64,000 bases of DNA from NCBI GenBank assembly GCA_002720865.1, contig PBIO01000014.1, positions 806,001 to 870,000 of the forward strand. The letters are read 5' to 3'. The notes beneath the pieces are model-generated. The model saw nothing but the letters and a program-made list of their open reading frames with translations, had not been told where the DNA came from and searched no databases. Both the position numbers and the translations under genes were made by a program. Positions 7,900-13,292 of this stretch are shown piece by piece; the stretch's first letter is position 1; every line of letters starts with the position of its first letter. This DNA is from Halobacteriovorax sp. (GTDB lineage: Bacteria; Bdellovibrionota; Bacteriovoracia; Bacteriovoracales; Bacteriovoracaceae).

Positions 7900-8427
7900 A
7901 TGACTATTAAATCCAAAATCAGAACCATCCCTAACTTCCCAAAAGAAGGAATCATGTTTCGCGACGTGACAACTTTAATGAAAGACCCGGAAGGCTTTAA
8001 GCTCACCATCGATACTTTAGTTGATCGCTATAAGGACATGGATATTGATGTCATTGTTGGAATAGAGGCCCGTGGTTTTATTCTTGGTGCGGCCATGGCC
8101 TACAATATGGGTAAAGGCTTTGTGCCTATTCGAAAAAAAGGCAAGCTTCCCGGTGAGACCTATAGTGAAGACTATCAGCTTGAATACGGTGTCGATACAA
8201 TTGAGGTGCATACGGATGCCATCGAAAAAGGGCAAAAGGTTTTAATCGTCGATGATCTGTTAGCGACCGGAGGGACTATTTTAGGTGCCATTTCTTTAGT
8301 TGAAAAAACTGGAGGGGAGGTTGTTGAATCCTGTTTTATCGTAGATCTTCCAGATCTAAACGGATCCCAAAAATTAAAAGATGCTGGCTATAAGTACTTT
8401 TGTCTTACTGAATTTGAGGGTGAATAG
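7900..8427 (+). CDS. apt: Adenine phosphoribosyltransferase
   Basis: 175 residues. It converts adenine plus PRPP to AMP. Visible blocks are FPKEGIMFRDVT near the N-terminus, GIEARGFILGAA, FVPIRKKGKLPG and the PRPP-binding motif VLIVDDLLATGGT near 116-128, all in the usual order and spacing. GAGAG lies upstream of ATG 7900. The last 23 bases overlap the convergent PEGA lipoprotein gene. With tdk and hpt later in the window, it shows an active base and nucleoside salvage capacity. Confidence 0.96.
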   Translation: MTIKSKIRTIPNFPKEGIMFRDVTTLMKDPEGFKLTIDTLVDRYKDMDIDVIVGIEARGFILGAAMAYNMGKGFVPIRKKGKLPGETYSEDYQLEYGVDTIEVHTDAIEKGQKVLIVDDLLATGGTILGAISLVEKTGGEVVESCFIVDLPDLNGSQKLKDAGYKYFCLTEFEGE

Positions 8428-9052
8428 CTGAAAGCTTAACTCGCTTATCAACCAGTAATTCTTGGACCCTAACTTGAAAGGCATCTGGTTCATTATATTG
8501 AATCAGCTTTGGTAGGTTTTGTGCCAGAACTCTTCTAAAAGTTGGGAACTGACTATCGCTTACGCCCATTAGTTTGGCGTAGCTCTTAAGAACCTCTCCG
8601 CGTCCTTGAACTAAATTACTTAGTATCTTTCTTTGGTTTAAAAGAACGAACTTTATTAGCTCAGCCTTTGGGCTACTCATAGAAGTCCCTTTTCTTTTGA
8701 GATCAATAAAGTAGCTATGGGGTTGATATTCAAGGAGATGACCAGTTAGAGCGTCAGTTCCCCAAGAAAGAAAGGACGTGCAGTTAAAAAGGGCCACACC
8801 TGAAACTGTTTTTTTGAGCTGGAACTTCTGGCTATCAAAGCCATCTTTTTTAATCGTTATATAGTGCTTATTAAACGTGGAGCGTTTGAACTCTTTTGTA
8901 AAAGGAGTCGTTCCTACTTTGTCCCCATCAATATAAACATCAGCGCCAGAAGGCTCTGACTTAAATGTAACCTTGTCTTTACTTTTAGAAAATATCGTCG
9001 CGCAGCTAGAAAGCAGGCTTAATAATAAAAGTGAAATGACAATTGAACGCAT
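8405..9052 (-). CDS. Lipoprotein with PEGA domain
   Basis: 215 residues. A lipoprotein signal ends in LLSSCA (Cys17), followed directly by a PEGA-type segment, SEPSGADVYIDGDKVGTTPF at about 32-51. PEGA repeats are small beta-sandwich modules common in bacterial surface proteins. The C-terminal 90 residues are helical and contain no recognised domain. AGGAAG precedes ATG 9052. The role is unknown; surface or envelope anchoring is plausible. Confidence 0.8.
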   Translation of the reverse strand: MRSIVISLLLLSLLSSCATIFSKSKDKVTFKSEPSGADVYIDGDKVGTTPFTKEFKRSTFNKHYITIKKDGFDSQKFQLKKTVSGVALFNCTSFLSWGTDALTGHLLEYQPHSYFIDLKRKGTSMSSPKAELIKFVLLNQRKILSNLVQGRGEVLKSYAKLMGVSDSQFPTFRRVLAQNLPKLIQYNEPDAFQVRVQELLVDKRVKLSAIHPQIQ

Positions 9053-9115: not shown

Positions 9116-9367
9116 TTACCAAAGAACGTAGAGACCTTTAATAAGATCGTCAGGATGAAGCTCTTTGGAATCGACGAAGAGGCTTTTGTACTCCTCAGAT
9201 GTTTTGGCGTGAACTTTGGAAAAGTAGTTCAGGGGAAGGTAGCCTTTTTTACACTTTTGACAGCTTTCCATTTCCTTTTTTCCCTCGTTTAAAAAACCGC
9301 ACATATGACACTTCTTGAAGATTGTTTTCTTAGAGGTCAATGTGGTTTTATAAGTTGAGTTACTCAT
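9116..9367 (-). CDS. Small zinc-ribbon-like protein
   Basis: 83 residues. Two CxxC pairs (CHMC near 20 and CQKC near 36, spaced by about 12 residues) form a probable one-zinc ribbon; the rest is basic and polar. There is no signal peptide, so it is probably cytosolic and may bind nucleic acid or protein. It stands alone between the coiled-coil gene and the PEGA lipoprotein gene. The family is not recognised. Confidence 0.6.
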   Translation of the reverse strand: MSNSTYKTTLTSKKTIFKKCHMCGFLNEGKKEMESCQKCKKGYLPLNYFSKVHAKTSEEYKSLFVDSKELHPDDLIKGLYVLW

Positions 9368-9417: not shown

Positions 9418-9453
9418 AAAAAAATTCCGCTCTACAGCTAAAGGCAGAGCGGA
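9418..9453 (-). terminator. Rho-independent terminator after the 505-residue coiled-coil gene
   Basis: On the minus strand TCCGCTCT (9446-9453) pairs with AGAGCGGA (9426-9433), followed by ATTTTTTT. It lies just downstream of the stop at 9466. Confidence 0.85.
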
Positions 9454-9465
9454 TTAGTCGGTTTC

Positions 9466-10983
9466 TTAGAAGGCGAAGTAGGCTGGGTTTCTTCCTGGGA
9501 CTTCTGGAGCGAACTGTCCAGCGCCTGTAGGAAGGCCAAATCCTTGTCCTAGCTCTGATCCAAAGTAATTACTTGGACCGATATCTCCCCAGTAAGTATT
9601 TTGAGGATTACGAGCTGAGTGATAAAGGAATGAATCCATTCCTTGCTTAGGCATATAGTAGTAACTATTCACCTGAGTATTTCCATTATTAAAATCAAAT
9701 GGGCTAGCACCTGGTTGACTCCACATTTTATTCATCATGGCGAGTCTCATATATGAGTTCCAATCAACCATGCTTGAGTCAGTAAGCGGGTTTTGATTAA
9801 CAACTGGCATTTGCGGAGCCGGAGCCTGATTGGCAAGCATGGCATACATTGTAAACTGTTCCATCAAGGCCGCAATCTGAGCCTTTTCTTTTTTACGTCT
9901 CTCGGCCATCTCTTCTTTTTCTTGTTTAAGAGCGGCGACAACTTTATCTATTTCTTTTTTATCTTCTTCAAACTCAGTCACTTGCTTTTTTAGTTCTTTC
10001 AGTTGTTTTTGTTGCTCGCATTCAGCAATTCTTAGATCAGCAAGTTGGGCACCCTGAGTTTCAATTTCTGTTGATTGTGTAGCAATCTTAGTTTCTTGTT
10101 CAGTTATCTTGGCATCTTGTTCTTCAATTTTCTTATCTTTACTTTGAAGCTCATCACTTAGTGCAGCAACTTGAAGTTCAAGACTTGCAATTTCATCTTC
10201 AGCAAGACCAAGCTCTTCATTAGTTAAATTAAGCTCGTCTTGAAGACCAGAAAATTCAGCTTTTAAACCCTCAAGTTCAGCGAGAGCATTTTCTTTTGCT
10301 TCTGTTTGTGAAGCGAGCTGAGTTGTAAGAGTGGCAATATCATTTTCCAATTGTTCTTTAATTTTGGCGTGCTCGCTATTGGCCGTATCAAGAGCTAATA
10401 GGGCTTCCTTTTTAAGGGCAAGCTCTTCATTAATTCTGGCATCTCTCACTTCGATATCAGCAGCGCGGCCCTCTTTTTCAGTCTTAAGACTTTCTTTGAT
10501 TGAAGCAATATCAGCCTCAAGAGCTTTCTTTTCAGTGGCGTGCATTTTCTTAACGGCGATCATATCCGACTTAAGTCTAGAGCGTTCTGCATCTAATTTT
10601 TTAATATCTTGAATTGCTAAAGCGATAATATGTGCAGCAGCTTTATTTTGAGATTTTAAGGCTGCGATCTCTCTGGCCTTCTTTTTAATCTCAGTATCTT
10701 TAGCTTTAATTTTTGCTTTAAGCTCAGCACTGTCATTTATATACATACGAATTGATTCAACGTAGCGCTTTCTTTTATAGATAAGACCCAAGGGAGTAAC
10801 AATTAAGATCTCCTCTTCATAGGCTTTATCTTGAGCGATAGCGACCTCAGAAGCAATACCTCTAGAAGCTAGGGTAAGGCTGCTCTTGGCAGGTGTAGGA
10901 ATTGTATTTACTGCATGTGAGACAAGACCCACGGCCACAAGGCAAAAACAGTAAAAACCTAAACGCCATTTTGACATATTCAT
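9466..10983 (-). CDS. Exported long coiled-coil protein with C-terminal signature
   Basis: 505 residues. An N-terminal hydrophobic segment (YCFCLVAVGLVSHAV, about 12-26) is a signal peptide or anchor. Residues from about 75 to 360 form an almost unbroken coiled coil rich in Glu, Lys, Ala and Leu with heptad spacing. The last 110 residues are quite different: rich in Asn, Tyr, Gly, Pro and Met, with QVNSYYY, FAPEVPGRNPA and a terminal YFAF. The neighbour at 11159 has the same layout and end. Candidate roles are structural: an envelope-spanning rod or surface filament. ATG 10983 follows GGAGAGAGTT. Confidence 0.75.
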   Translation of the reverse strand: MNMSKWRLGFYCFCLVAVGLVSHAVNTIPTPAKSSLTLASRGIASEVAIAQDKAYEEEILIVTPLGLIYKRKRYVESIRMYINDSAELKAKIKAKDTEIKKKAREIAALKSQNKAAAHIIALAIQDIKKLDAERSRLKSDMIAVKKMHATEKKALEADIASIKESLKTEKEGRAADIEVRDARINEELALKKEALLALDTANSEHAKIKEQLENDIATLTTQLASQTEAKENALAELEGLKAEFSGLQDELNLTNEELGLAEDEIASLELQVAALSDELQSKDKKIEEQDAKITEQETKIATQSTEIETQGAQLADLRIAECEQQKQLKELKKQVTEFEEDKKEIDKVVAALKQEKEEMAERRKKEKAQIAALMEQFTMYAMLANQAPAPQMPVVNQNPLTDSSMVDWNSYMRLAMMNKMWSQPGASPFDFNNGNTQVNSYYYMPKQGMDSFLYHSARNPQNTYWGDIGPSNYFGSELGQGFGLPTGAGQFAPEVPGRNPAYFAF

Positions 10984-11105
10984 AACTCTCTCCAGTTTGA
11001 AATAACTATGGTTTTAATAGAGCAAGGACTATGCCAATAAATGAGGGGGTAAGTAGTTGAATTTGTCTTAGGAAGTGGTAATTTTTATAGGACCGTCTAA
11101 AATTT

Positions 11106-11146
11106 AGACACCCCCATGCGCATACTATGGCAGCAGAGGGGTGTCT
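11106..11146 (-). terminator. Terminator after the 351-residue coiled-coil gene
   Basis: AGACACCCC (11106-11114) pairs with GGGGTGTCT (11138-11146); on the minus strand the stem is followed by AAATTTT. It lies just past the stop at 11159. The T run is imperfect and the loop is long (23 bases). Confidence 0.65.
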
Positions 11147-11158
11147 TATGTTGTTTAA

Positions 11159-12214
11159 TTAAAAGCTAAAAAATTCTGAACCAACATTTCCTCTTCCTGC
11201 TGTAGGAACTGTTTGGGTGTAGTTAACTCCATCAATAACCGGCATTAGTCTTGGCATCGATGAAGCCGCTGGGTTTCTCGACTCTAGTTCTGGGGCAGCA
11301 AATCCACCGTAGCTACCGATTCCAGGATATCCGCCAAATCCAAATCCGGCAGACTGACCACCGAAGTAATAGGTATTAACTTGCGACCTAGGGGCTGCAG
11401 CTTGTGGTCTATTCATCATGGACATTAACATAAACATTGAAAAAGGATCATTACCTGCAGGGGCTAAAAGCGCTGGAGGAGATACTTCAAAGAATGAGTT
11501 TTGTTGACCTTGGATATGGGCAAAAAGCTGAGCATAAGTCATAACATCAGCACTAAAGCCATCAACACTGGCGTCTGCATCTACTTCCGCTTCTTCATCA
11601 ACTTCTGCAACTACCTCTTCTTTATCTTTAAGAAGCTCAGCAATTTGTCCTTTAATATCTTCTAGTAAACCTTTGTTTTCACAGATTCTTTCACTTGTGG
11701 CAGCAAGAGCTGCTTTTTGCTCAAGAAGCTCAGATTCTTGGGCCTTTGAGATTTTTGTGTTTAGCTTTTCCTTAACTTCAGCTGGATAAAAATCAACCAT
11801 TTCCTTAGCTAAAGCATCAAAGGCTGGTTTATTTTCATGTTCAGCTTTATCAGAAAAGAAGCTTCTAAAGTCAGCGGAACGAGTTAGAAGACGTGTTCCT
11901 TCTACTCCGAGCTCTTCTACTTCTTCATCTCTCATTTGGATAAGTTCACTTAATCCCGTTTCCTCAGCGTTTAGACGAGCGTGAAACTTTGATCTGGATT
12001 CTTTATGAGCCTCTACAAGCTTCTTAAAATTTGAAAGTTCAACATCAACGTTTTCAGCGGTTACAGATTCAAATTCTACAGCGTTGGCTATTGTTCTAAA
12101 GATAGATGGGCTCCAGTTACCAGCTACTGACTGATGTTCGTAAACCACATTAGAACCAAAGGTAAACCCTAAGACTGATAGTGCAAGAGCACCCTTTGCT
12201 ACCATGGACTTCAT
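11159..12214 (-). CDS. Exported coiled-coil protein, sister of the 505-residue neighbour
   Basis: 351 residues. The N-terminal signal (ALALSVLGFTFGSNVVY) is followed by a helical, charged region to about residue 220. A glycine-, alanine- and aromatic-rich tail follows, with QVNTYYF, a run of GFGG/GGYPG, FAPELESRNPA and the terminal EFFSF. QVN(S/T)YY, FAPExxxRNPA and a final aromatic-F pair recur at the same relative places in the 505-residue protein encoded downstream, so the two are homologous at least in their tails. GAGGAGAGAATT precedes ATG 12214. Each gene has its own terminator, so they are separately transcribed. Confidence 0.75.
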   Translation of the reverse strand: MKSMVAKGALALSVLGFTFGSNVVYEHQSVAGNWSPSIFRTIANAVEFESVTAENVDVELSNFKKLVEAHKESRSKFHARLNAEETGLSELIQMRDEEVEELGVEGTRLLTRSADFRSFFSDKAEHENKPAFDALAKEMVDFYPAEVKEKLNTKISKAQESELLEQKAALAATSERICENKGLLEDIKGQIAELLKDKEEVVAEVDEEAEVDADASVDGFSADVMTYAQLFAHIQGQQNSFFEVSPPALLAPAGNDPFSMFMLMSMMNRPQAAAPRSQVNTYYFGGQSAGFGFGGYPGIGSYGGFAAPELESRNPAASSMPRLMPVIDGVNYTQTVPTAGRGNVGSEFFSF

Positions 12215-12284
12215 AATTCTCTCCTCATTAATTTATATAGGAGTTTAATTACAAGAGTCGTGCCATCTAGAAATAGTGGAAATC

Positions 12285-12305
12285 ATAAAAGAGCGAGTAG
12301 TCGCT
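12285..12305 (-). terminator. Weak terminator-like hairpin
   Basis: On the minus strand AGCGA-CTAC-TCGCT (12292-12305) is followed by CTTTTATG. It lies 40 bases past the stop of the 108-residue protein gene. The stem is only five pairs. Confidence 0.35.
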
Positions 12306-12345
12306 TTGGTAAAAAAGAAATGGTGCTGTCTAAACTTTTTACGAA

Positions 12346-12672
12346 TTAAAGATTTGAACTTGAATCATCATCTTCAGCGAAGGCCTGATCCATAGCATTC
12401 ATATTATCTGTAAAAGTTTGCTGGATTTTTTTCATAAGCTCTAGCTCATGCTGAACTCTAACCTGCTCAATTTTCTTTCTAAGCATGGCCTCAGTTCTTT
12501 TCTCAAGCTTTTCTCTGAAAGCTTTTCTTCTTTCTGAGGGGCTCATTGTGCGGGCAGCATACTGGCCATCAATACCGATAATATCGTTATTAACTCTTTG
12601 AACATTGTTTGAAGCGGCTAAAAGATTAGCTGAAAAGAAAAGAGTCACTATAAAGATAAAAGTCTTATTCAT
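12346..12672 (-). CDS. Small exported helical protein
   Basis: 108 residues with a cleavable signal (IFIVTLFFSANLLAA, cleavage near 20). The mature part is a single long charged helix with coiled-coil character between about 45 and 90 and ends in an acidic DDDSSSN tail. It lies directly upstream of the two larger coiled-coil genes in the same orientation, so it may belong to the same envelope structure; that link is inference from position. Ribosome binding is weak (GGGAT). Confidence 0.65.
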   Translation of the reverse strand: MNKTFIFIVTLFFSANLLAASNNVQRVNNDIIGIDGQYAARTMSPSERRKAFREKLEKRTEAMLRKKIEQVRVQHELELMKKIQQTFTDNMNAMDQAFAEDDDSSSNL

Positions 12673-12771: not shown

Positions 12772-13173
12772 TCACTTTTTCTTGGGGGTCTTCTTTTGTA
12801 GTTTTTCGATCTCAGAAAGGACCATATTGAAGTTTCCATTATTGATTATGATTTCATTTGCCCCTGATTCCGCTAAGCTAGCGGCCGCCTCATCATCAGC
12901 TTCCGGTAATATGGCCAGAATAGGCAATTCGTCACGGGTGTGGACATTTCGTAAAAGCCCTACAATTTCCTCCGCTGGCATGTCTTCAAGCTCATCCCCT
13001 TGGATGATCACCAGGTTAAAGGGATGTTTTTCCACGAGGTGGATGGCGTGAAAGCCACCCTGGGCAAGCTCCACATTAAAGGCCTGCATTCTAAGCCTTG
13101 AGCTAGTTTGCTTTTTGCGGGTTTCGTTCCCATCAACATAAAGAATATTATATTCGTCCGTAAGTGCTGGCAT
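12772..13173 (-). CDS. Degenerate response-regulator receiver domain (pseudo-receiver)
   Basis: 133 residues from ATG 13173. The fold pattern follows a CheY-like receiver: ILYVDGNE at 9-16 (position of the VDD acid pocket), a helix, NLVIIQGDEL where the phospho-acceptor Asp should stand, PILAILPE for the Thr/Ser strand, and SGANEIII where the conserved Lys is expected. The acceptor Asp appears replaced (Gln or Gly), and the Thr and Lys are missing, so phosphorylation is unlikely. It is a lone domain without an output module. A longer frame would run through the tRNA gene, so I reject it. Confidence 0.65.
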   Translation of the reverse strand: MPALTDEYNILYVDGNETRKKQTSSRLRMQAFNVELAQGGFHAIHLVEKHPFNLVIIQGDELEDMPAEEIVGLLRNVHTRDELPILAILPEADDEAAASLAESGANEIIINNGNFNMVLSEIEKLQKKTPKKK

Positions 13174-13217
13174 GGAGAGATTATCGCTAAACTTAGTTTT
13201 TGAGTAAAGGGGGAAAA

Positions 13218-13292
13218 TGGAGCGGCGACCGAGGGTCGAACTCGGGACCTTCTGCATGGCAAGCAGACGCACTACCACTGTGCTACCACCGC
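13218..13292 (-). tRNA. tRNA-Gly (anticodon GCC), CCA encoded
   Basis: On the minus strand: acceptor GCGGTGG / TCGCCGC (two wobble pairs), D arm GCAC-AGTGGTA-GTGC, anticodon stem TCTGC/GCAGA with loop TTGCCAT (anticodon GCC), five-base variable loop, T arm CCGAG-TTCGACC-CTCGG, then T73 and an encoded CCA. It reads GGC/GGU glycine codons. All arms pair, so the gene is intact. Confidence 0.95.

Follow-up and report, generated by a model that had tools for sequence, protein, structure and literature searches.

Two neighbouring genes of Halobacteriovorax sp., called A and B here, encode proteins that are best read as sister paralogs of a previously unnamed family of exported rod proteins. They lie on the minus strand of a window of 64,000 nucleotides (the whole stretch of DNA analysed; assembly GCA_002720865.1, contig PBIO01000014.1, positions 806,001 to 870,000), and all coordinates below are those of this window. 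A sequence-only reading of the same DNA had seen a shared signature in the C-terminal tails of the two proteins. The tails proved to be lineage-specific, and the family is instead defined by an N-terminal RxIAS/RxPAS motif and by a single cysteine followed by a leucine-zipper-like segment, designated as the cysteine zipper.

Protein B (505 amino acids, 9466-10983) consists of a hydrophobic N-terminus (residues 1-22), an R-G-I-A-S motif (residues 41-45, 10849-10863), a weak beta-hairpin, a predicted helix of about 300 residues (residues 83-384 in the AlphaFold2 model with a single break at 201-202, 9832-10737), the cysteine zipper (residues 318-352 with Cys322, 9928-10032) and a tail with many Met, Gln, Asn and Tyr residues that is predicted to be disordered and ends with RNPAYFAF (9469-9831). 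Its paralog, protein A (351 amino acids, 11159-12214), has an RTIAN motif (residues 40-44, 12083-12097), a helical region (residues 56-208 of the AlphaFold2 model, 11591-12049), a cysteine zipper (residues 174-202 with Cys178, 11609-11695) and a tail, likewise predicted to be disordered, with a Met-rich stretch, QVNTYY, APELESRNPA and terminal EFFSF (11162-11590). Next to A, on the same strand, the gene for protein H (108 amino acids, 12346-12672) encodes a putative exported helix. Each of the three proteins starts with a hydrophobic, signal-like segment, as judged by hydropathy and by eye, and their export is predicted from these segments.

The sequence-only reading had described this trio well in several respects. 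The open reading frames (ORFs) for 505, 351 and 108 residues are present where it placed them, and A and B are indeed a pair of predicted exported proteins with differing rods and a common C-terminal module, the rod lengths being very different across genera. Both contain the proposed QVN(S/T)YY (QVNSYY at residues 437-442 of B, QVNTYY at 278-283 of A) and the aromatic C-terminal FxF (YFAF in B, EFFSF in A). The longer string FAPExxxRNPA has to be shortened: B carries APEVPGRNPA at residues 492-501 and A carries APELESRNPA at 307-316, but A reads FAAPE, and only APExxxRNPA is common to the two. Furthermore, RNPA stops 35 residues before the C-terminus in A, whereas it runs into the C-terminus in B.

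For a wider comparison, family proteins were collected by their position beside a gene for a zinc-ribbon protein (83 amino acids, 9116-9367, minus strand), which was taken as an anchor since it is widely kept (111 of the 129 genomes of the taxonomic family). Sixty-five loci of this taxonomic family were fetched, and a zinc-ribbon pattern placed the anchor in 62 of them (not located in L063, L064 and L067). Ten loci were excluded by eye, four had no ORF in position (L085 was restored by hand), and 11 unrelated or unassignable rows were removed, leaving 66 proteins; 96 exported-like ORFs served as controls. Past residue 35 every one of the 66 proteins contains a cysteine, which in 56 of them is the only one there (15 of 96 controls). 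The distance from the start to this cysteine varies from 43 to 637 residues, while that from the cysteine to the end is confined to 124-248. A motif R-x-[I/V/L/P/M/F]-[A/S]-[S/A/N] past the hydrophobic segment is present in 50 of the 66 proteins (4 of 96 controls). If nothing is dropped, the first set comprises 56 ORFs, with one cysteine in 38, the N-terminal motif in 33 and the cysteine-to-end distance in range in 48.

As these motifs were first noticed in the first set, only a hold-out set tests them. It was drawn, with criteria fixed beforehand, from 40 of about 45 unfetched neighbourhoods, of which five were too short and two lacked an ORF, and none of the remaining 33 ORFs was dropped. 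The N-terminal motif was found in 26, a single cysteine in 23 and a cysteine-to-end distance in range in 31 of them, as compared to 4, 15 and 19 of the 96 controls; note that many hold-out genomes come from two genera (g14 and g24) and are not independent.

When 97 proteins were aligned without gaps on their cysteines (an unrelated gene in L158 and one protein without cysteine were left out), Leu was found at position +9 in 74, Ile or Val at +13 in 62 and Leu at +16 in 58 proteins, with polar residues at +6 (Asn in 22) and +20 (Lys or Gln in 62). The periodicity of this alignment peaks at 3.5 residues. By these frequencies, the stretch of about 40 residues from the single cysteine is a leucine-zipper-like pattern in fixed register. 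A lone cysteine with such a zipper behind it, 124-248 residues from the end, is the feature by which the proteins qualify as a new family. Downstream of the zipper, Met-rich stretches follow in most members.

That A and B are best read as paralogs follows from their alignment scores. From the zipper onwards, including the tail, they align with a Smith-Waterman score of 100, which none of 2000 shuffles attained (shuffled mean 31), and the tails alone score 63 against 33.4 (reached by 3 of 2000), although whole-protein BLASTP aligned the coils alone. When the profiles of A and B were compared with hhalign, the N-termini and the zippers each matched with a probability of 96% and the tails with 9%. 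The tail scores of 13 of 17 A/B pairs do not stand out from those of shuffled sequences (at least 28 of 500 shuffles reach the score).

The tail motifs, judged by their counts, typify this genus and some further ones. Among the 66 proteins, R-x-P-[AS] occurs within the last 60 residues of 25 (13 of 27 genera), an N-x-YY-like motif in 26 (13 of 27 genera) and aromatic-x-Phe as the very end in 12 (6 of 27 genera; shuffled mean 0.9), the genera being counted for the protein adjacent to the zinc-ribbon gene. With nothing dropped, the first set (56 ORFs) has R-x-P-[AS] in 19, FxF in 13 and N-YY in 19. All three motifs are above shuffles in the first set and less clearly so in the hold-out, where R-x-P-[AS] was found in 8, N-YY in 5 and aromatic-x-Phe near the end in 4 of 33 (2, 1 and 3 of 96 controls, respectively); 5 of 1000 shuffles reach the N-x-YY count, and 23 of 1000 reach the count of the motif at the very end (2 of 33). 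Among 17 A tails the end motif is not above shuffles (1 of 17; reached by 186 of 1000). By eye, the N-terminal R-x-[IP]-A-S resembles the C-terminal R-x-P-[AS].

A search with A itself detected relatives in 6 of 59 genomes, its own included, and a profile of A matched 27 of the 129 genomes of the taxonomic family. The zipper profile (42 positions, cut-off E 0.001) was run against 230 genomes sampled across the phylum and matched 42, all in one taxonomic family (f1); in the own genome it matches only A (2.9e-9) and B (1.3e-8). As the profile was built from proteins of this locus, the matches within the taxonomic family are partly so by construction, but no such reservation applies to the absence outside. 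By position, almost every match falls at this locus. The exceptions are on G107:C77 and G110:C111, the latter contig carrying A-like and H-like matches together. Several genomes keep the order receiver-like gene, H, A, B and zinc-ribbon gene, with a RecJ-like gene nearby. Among 19 zinc-ribbon neighbourhoods of other taxonomic families, three (L136, L202 and L203; genus g69, family f3) contain a single-cysteine exported coil protein. These proteins of about 590-600 amino acids are encoded directly upstream of the zinc-ribbon gene (L136:7752-9563, L202:1273-3051, L203:1084-2883; the single cysteine of L136 is counted from an inner start). The zipper profile had no match at the cysteine of the L136 protein, the sole g69 protein tested (best stretch 3.1 bits), and the g69 coil protein may be remotely related or may resemble the family without common descent. 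Two further neighbourhoods of the 19 (L125 and L126, family f20) encode small exported CxxC proteins beside the zinc-ribbon gene.

No described family was found for A and B in Pfam, PHROG and Protein Data Bank (PDB) searches, as the sequence-only reading had supposed. No Pfam model scored above cut-off in A, B or H, the PDB sequence search returned 0 matches for A and 0 for H, and Foldseek of the A model against the PDB returned 0 matches at E 0.001 or better; no publication on these proteins was found in the literature searched. In a Pfam scan of ten members, SH3_1 (E 3.9e-7) and CENP-Q (E 0.00038) each appeared in one. Matches to SMC, Rad50, spanins and tape measure proteins covered coils only and were treated as coil noise; the weak match of B to the Rz-like spanin phrog_89 (E 0.0096) is of this kind, without phage context and with a very different length. 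The AlphaFold2 models, based on alignments of 8 (A) and 10 (B) rows, have helices within residues 56-208 and no strands in A, and a low-confidence hairpin (50-79) in front of the long helix in B. The sequence-only reading had recommended structure prediction for the C-terminal parts; they are modelled as disordered, with a predicted local distance difference test score (pLDDT) below 50 for residues 203-351 of A and from residue 379 of B.

Protein H offers a possible link to the outer membrane. The H-domain profile matches 44 of the 230 genomes, 39 in the taxonomic family and five weakly outside (E 7e-8 to 7e-6), and most of these 39 genomes have a second copy of the domain elsewhere, inside a frame of 330-405 residues. 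The seven such frames inspected (L179-L184 and L188) comprise a signal-like start, an H-like helix, a linker and a barrel-like half, and PF13505 was above its gathering score in three of four H-domain barrel proteins scanned. These barrel proteins thus have their N-terminal helical domain in common with H of the same genomes, although H, A and B contain no barrel. In an outer-membrane protein of this kind the domain probably faces the periplasm. At the locus itself, H is present in 8 of 9 genera with an A/B pair as compared to 3 of 18 without (Fisher p 0.0006), the genera having been assigned by hand and contig ends being able to distort the counts.

As a tentative proposal, to which we give a probability of roughly 40%, we consider A and B as components of a scaffold in the periplasm or associated with the outer membrane, built of rods that pair through their zippers, location, pairing and function being read from sequence features. 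In coiled coils, parallel dimers are favoured where d holds Leu and a holds beta-branched residues, with a polar residue in some heptads. The zippers, which have Leu at d and Ile/Val at a, with Asn, Lys or Gln as polar residues at further a positions, would pair as parallel two-stranded coils, A with A, B with B or A with B. Through the outward cysteine, such dimers might then be joined to each other or to a partner, while the sticky tail could gather the rods into bundles or attach them to the outer membrane. The product would be a polymer or scaffold, located in the periplasm or at the outer membrane. H would provide the connection to this membrane, since its helix is also the N-terminal domain of an outer-membrane barrel protein. 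Rods ranging from near nothing to several hundred residues make a bridge of fixed length between the membranes unlikely, and a simple span of the periplasm by such a bridge was rejected on the spread of the start-to-cysteine distance.

Several observations weigh against such a scaffold. The cysteine occupies a b-like, outward position of the zipper, and a disulphide within one dimer is therefore not the obvious reading. The heptad periodicity of the rods encoded in the window is weak at 3.5 and stronger near 3.55. H is not obligatory, as many genera with a zipper protein lack it at the locus. The confidence of the models is low overall (mean pLDDT 57.6 for A and 63.8 for B, predicted template modelling scores 0.37 and 0.34). 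As for co-transcription of the genes, terminator-like hairpins follow both B and H, seven hairpins having been found in all, which is within two standard deviations of shuffles (4.0, standard deviation 2.2).

Other explanations were weighed against the same evidence. A and B could instead cross the outer membrane as stalks of surface fibres, with the variable tail as a tip contacting prey or surfaces. Indeed, the tail is the fastest-changing part of the proteins (the 9% in hhalign), the rods can be long (as the helix 83-384 of B), and the named relatives are labelled Halobacteriovorax and Bacteriovoracaceae, groups known for predation. However, Pfam and PHROG scans revealed no autotransporter, usher or fibre domain, the models of A and B predict a disordered tail instead of a folded tip, and the 130-residue beta domain that follows the signal peptide in MAT fibres is missing; we regard such fibres as unlikely. 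Alternatively, one protease might cut at R-x-[I/P]-A-S near the start and at R-x-P-[A/S] near the end and so free the rod from its anchor. The enrichment of the N-terminal motif in both sets (50 of 66 and 26 of 33 against 4 of 96 controls) and of R-x-P-[AS] in the last 60 residues (25 of 66 and 8 of 33 against 2 of 96) would agree with this, but the C-terminal motif is absent from most members and the distance from the N-terminal motif to the hydrophobic segment varies, and we judge this processing rather improbable. Part of it recurs in a more speculative version of the scaffold proposal, a dedicated envelope apparatus of this Bacteriovoracaceae-like family, in which R-x-[I/P]-A-S (in many lineages with R-x-P-A/S at the end) would mark the rods for some sorting or processing machine, zipper rods of any length would be assembled, and H together with its barrel-borne sister would form an outer-membrane socket; its chances appear small.

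Aromatic ends are known from outer-membrane proteins and from DegS ligands. The aromatic C-termini might thus be recognised by a PDZ-type periplasmic protease or by the machinery for outer-membrane insertion, which would make A and B tethered sensors in envelope stress control, or clients of it. The excess of aromatic-x-Phe at the very end over shuffles (12 of 66, mean 0.9) fits this idea, but just 6 of 27 genera have this end, as do no more than 2 of the 33 proteins of the hold-out, and neither A nor B has a barrel, so that we hold it to be very unlikely. Direct membership among outer-membrane barrels with a C-terminal beta-signal was rejected, A and B having neither barrel strands nor a Pfam match to such proteins. 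The slightest chance is given to binding of metals or hydrophobic ligands in the periplasm by the Met-rich stretch and the lone cysteine. Met-rich stretches do follow the zipper in most members, but no fixed Met spacing is visible by eye, no known metal family was matched, and the long rods would be left unexplained.

Among known systems, CrvA/CrvB of Vibrio cholerae, which form a periplasmic complex or periskeletal polymer involved in curvature (PMC11369160, PMC8938487, PMC7695739), come nearest by function. Like A and B, they are two exported proteins, and they may serve as a works-like analogue of an envelope scaffold, the comparison being one of descriptions only. For CrvA/CrvB, a position at the inner curve and a curvature phenotype are reported, whereas the scaffold of A and B is a prediction from sequence. 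The cysteine zipper, the RxIAS motif and the H partner are features of A and B that are not mentioned for CrvA/CrvB in the excerpts of the three papers used here (PMC11369160, PMC8938487, PMC7695739). The MAT fibres of Bdellovibrio bacteriovorus carry a beta-rich domain of about 130 amino acids directly after the signal peptide (PMC10769870) and are further defined by a beta-helix or S74 C-terminal region. They resemble A and B in being exported, elongated and variable at the C-terminus and in belonging to a predator of the Bdellovibrionota (PMC10769870). In contrast to these fibres, the rods of A and B are helical and disorder is predicted for their tails. Membership was rejected: instead of the beta-rich domain, A has no strands and B only the low-confidence hairpin at 50-79, and no Pfam or PHROG fibre domain, beta-helix or S74 region was found, the tails being predicted disordered. 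Ccrp of B. bacteriovorus and crescentin are long coiled-coil proteins tied to cell architecture (PMC8938487, PMC11369160). A and B are likewise long coiled-coil proteins, but crescentin is described as cytoplasmic whereas A and B have export segments, and membership in this cytoskeletal group was rejected on account of the N-terminal hydrophobic segments across genera, seen by hydropathy and by eye.

If the proposed scaffold exists, predators of the Halobacteriovorax kind may use it to build or stiffen their envelope, a process studied mainly in Bdellovibrio itself. The widely kept, locus-bound exported rod proteins, defined here from sequence, offer the motif, the cysteine and the zipper as parts for mutation, and the extreme variation of rod length, with the ends kept constant, amounts to an experiment by nature on the purpose of the rod.

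The gene 12772-13278 (minus strand), usually paired with that of H, encodes a receiver-like protein without the phospho-acceptor Asp: this residue is present in the respective column in 0 of 27 homologs, whereas both canonical receivers (2 of 2) in L072 have it, and identity as a canonical phospho-receiver was rejected. In G035 the receiver-like gene and the H gene are together at another locus (L190). The H-domain barrel gene of the own genome (L179:5381-6475; also found in L180-L184 and L188) adjoins genes for thiolase and fatty-acid oxidation-like proteins and an ORF for a Flp-pilin-like protein of 71-90 amino acids, an order largely kept across genera. In G015, a second stand-alone copy of H is followed by a gene for an exported Met-rich protein of 449 amino acids (both within L185:3509-5368). 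This protein, with an RRAPG motif near its start and a single cysteine past residue 35, might be distantly allied to the A/B type.

Just past gene B on the minus strand, a terminator-like hairpin of 10 pairs with a T-rich tail is located at 9426-9453. The zinc-ribbon protein encoded beyond it (9116-9367) ends with VLW; its relatives in other families of the Bdellovibrionota often end with YW or FW, and their genes often adjoin a threonine-dehydratase-like gene. Finally, 8405-9052 encodes a lipoprotein-like protein of 215 amino acids with a PEGA domain and a DUF3015-like C-terminus. Its relative in G002 consists of the C-terminal part alone (132 amino acids), which implies that the PEGA part was gained or lost.

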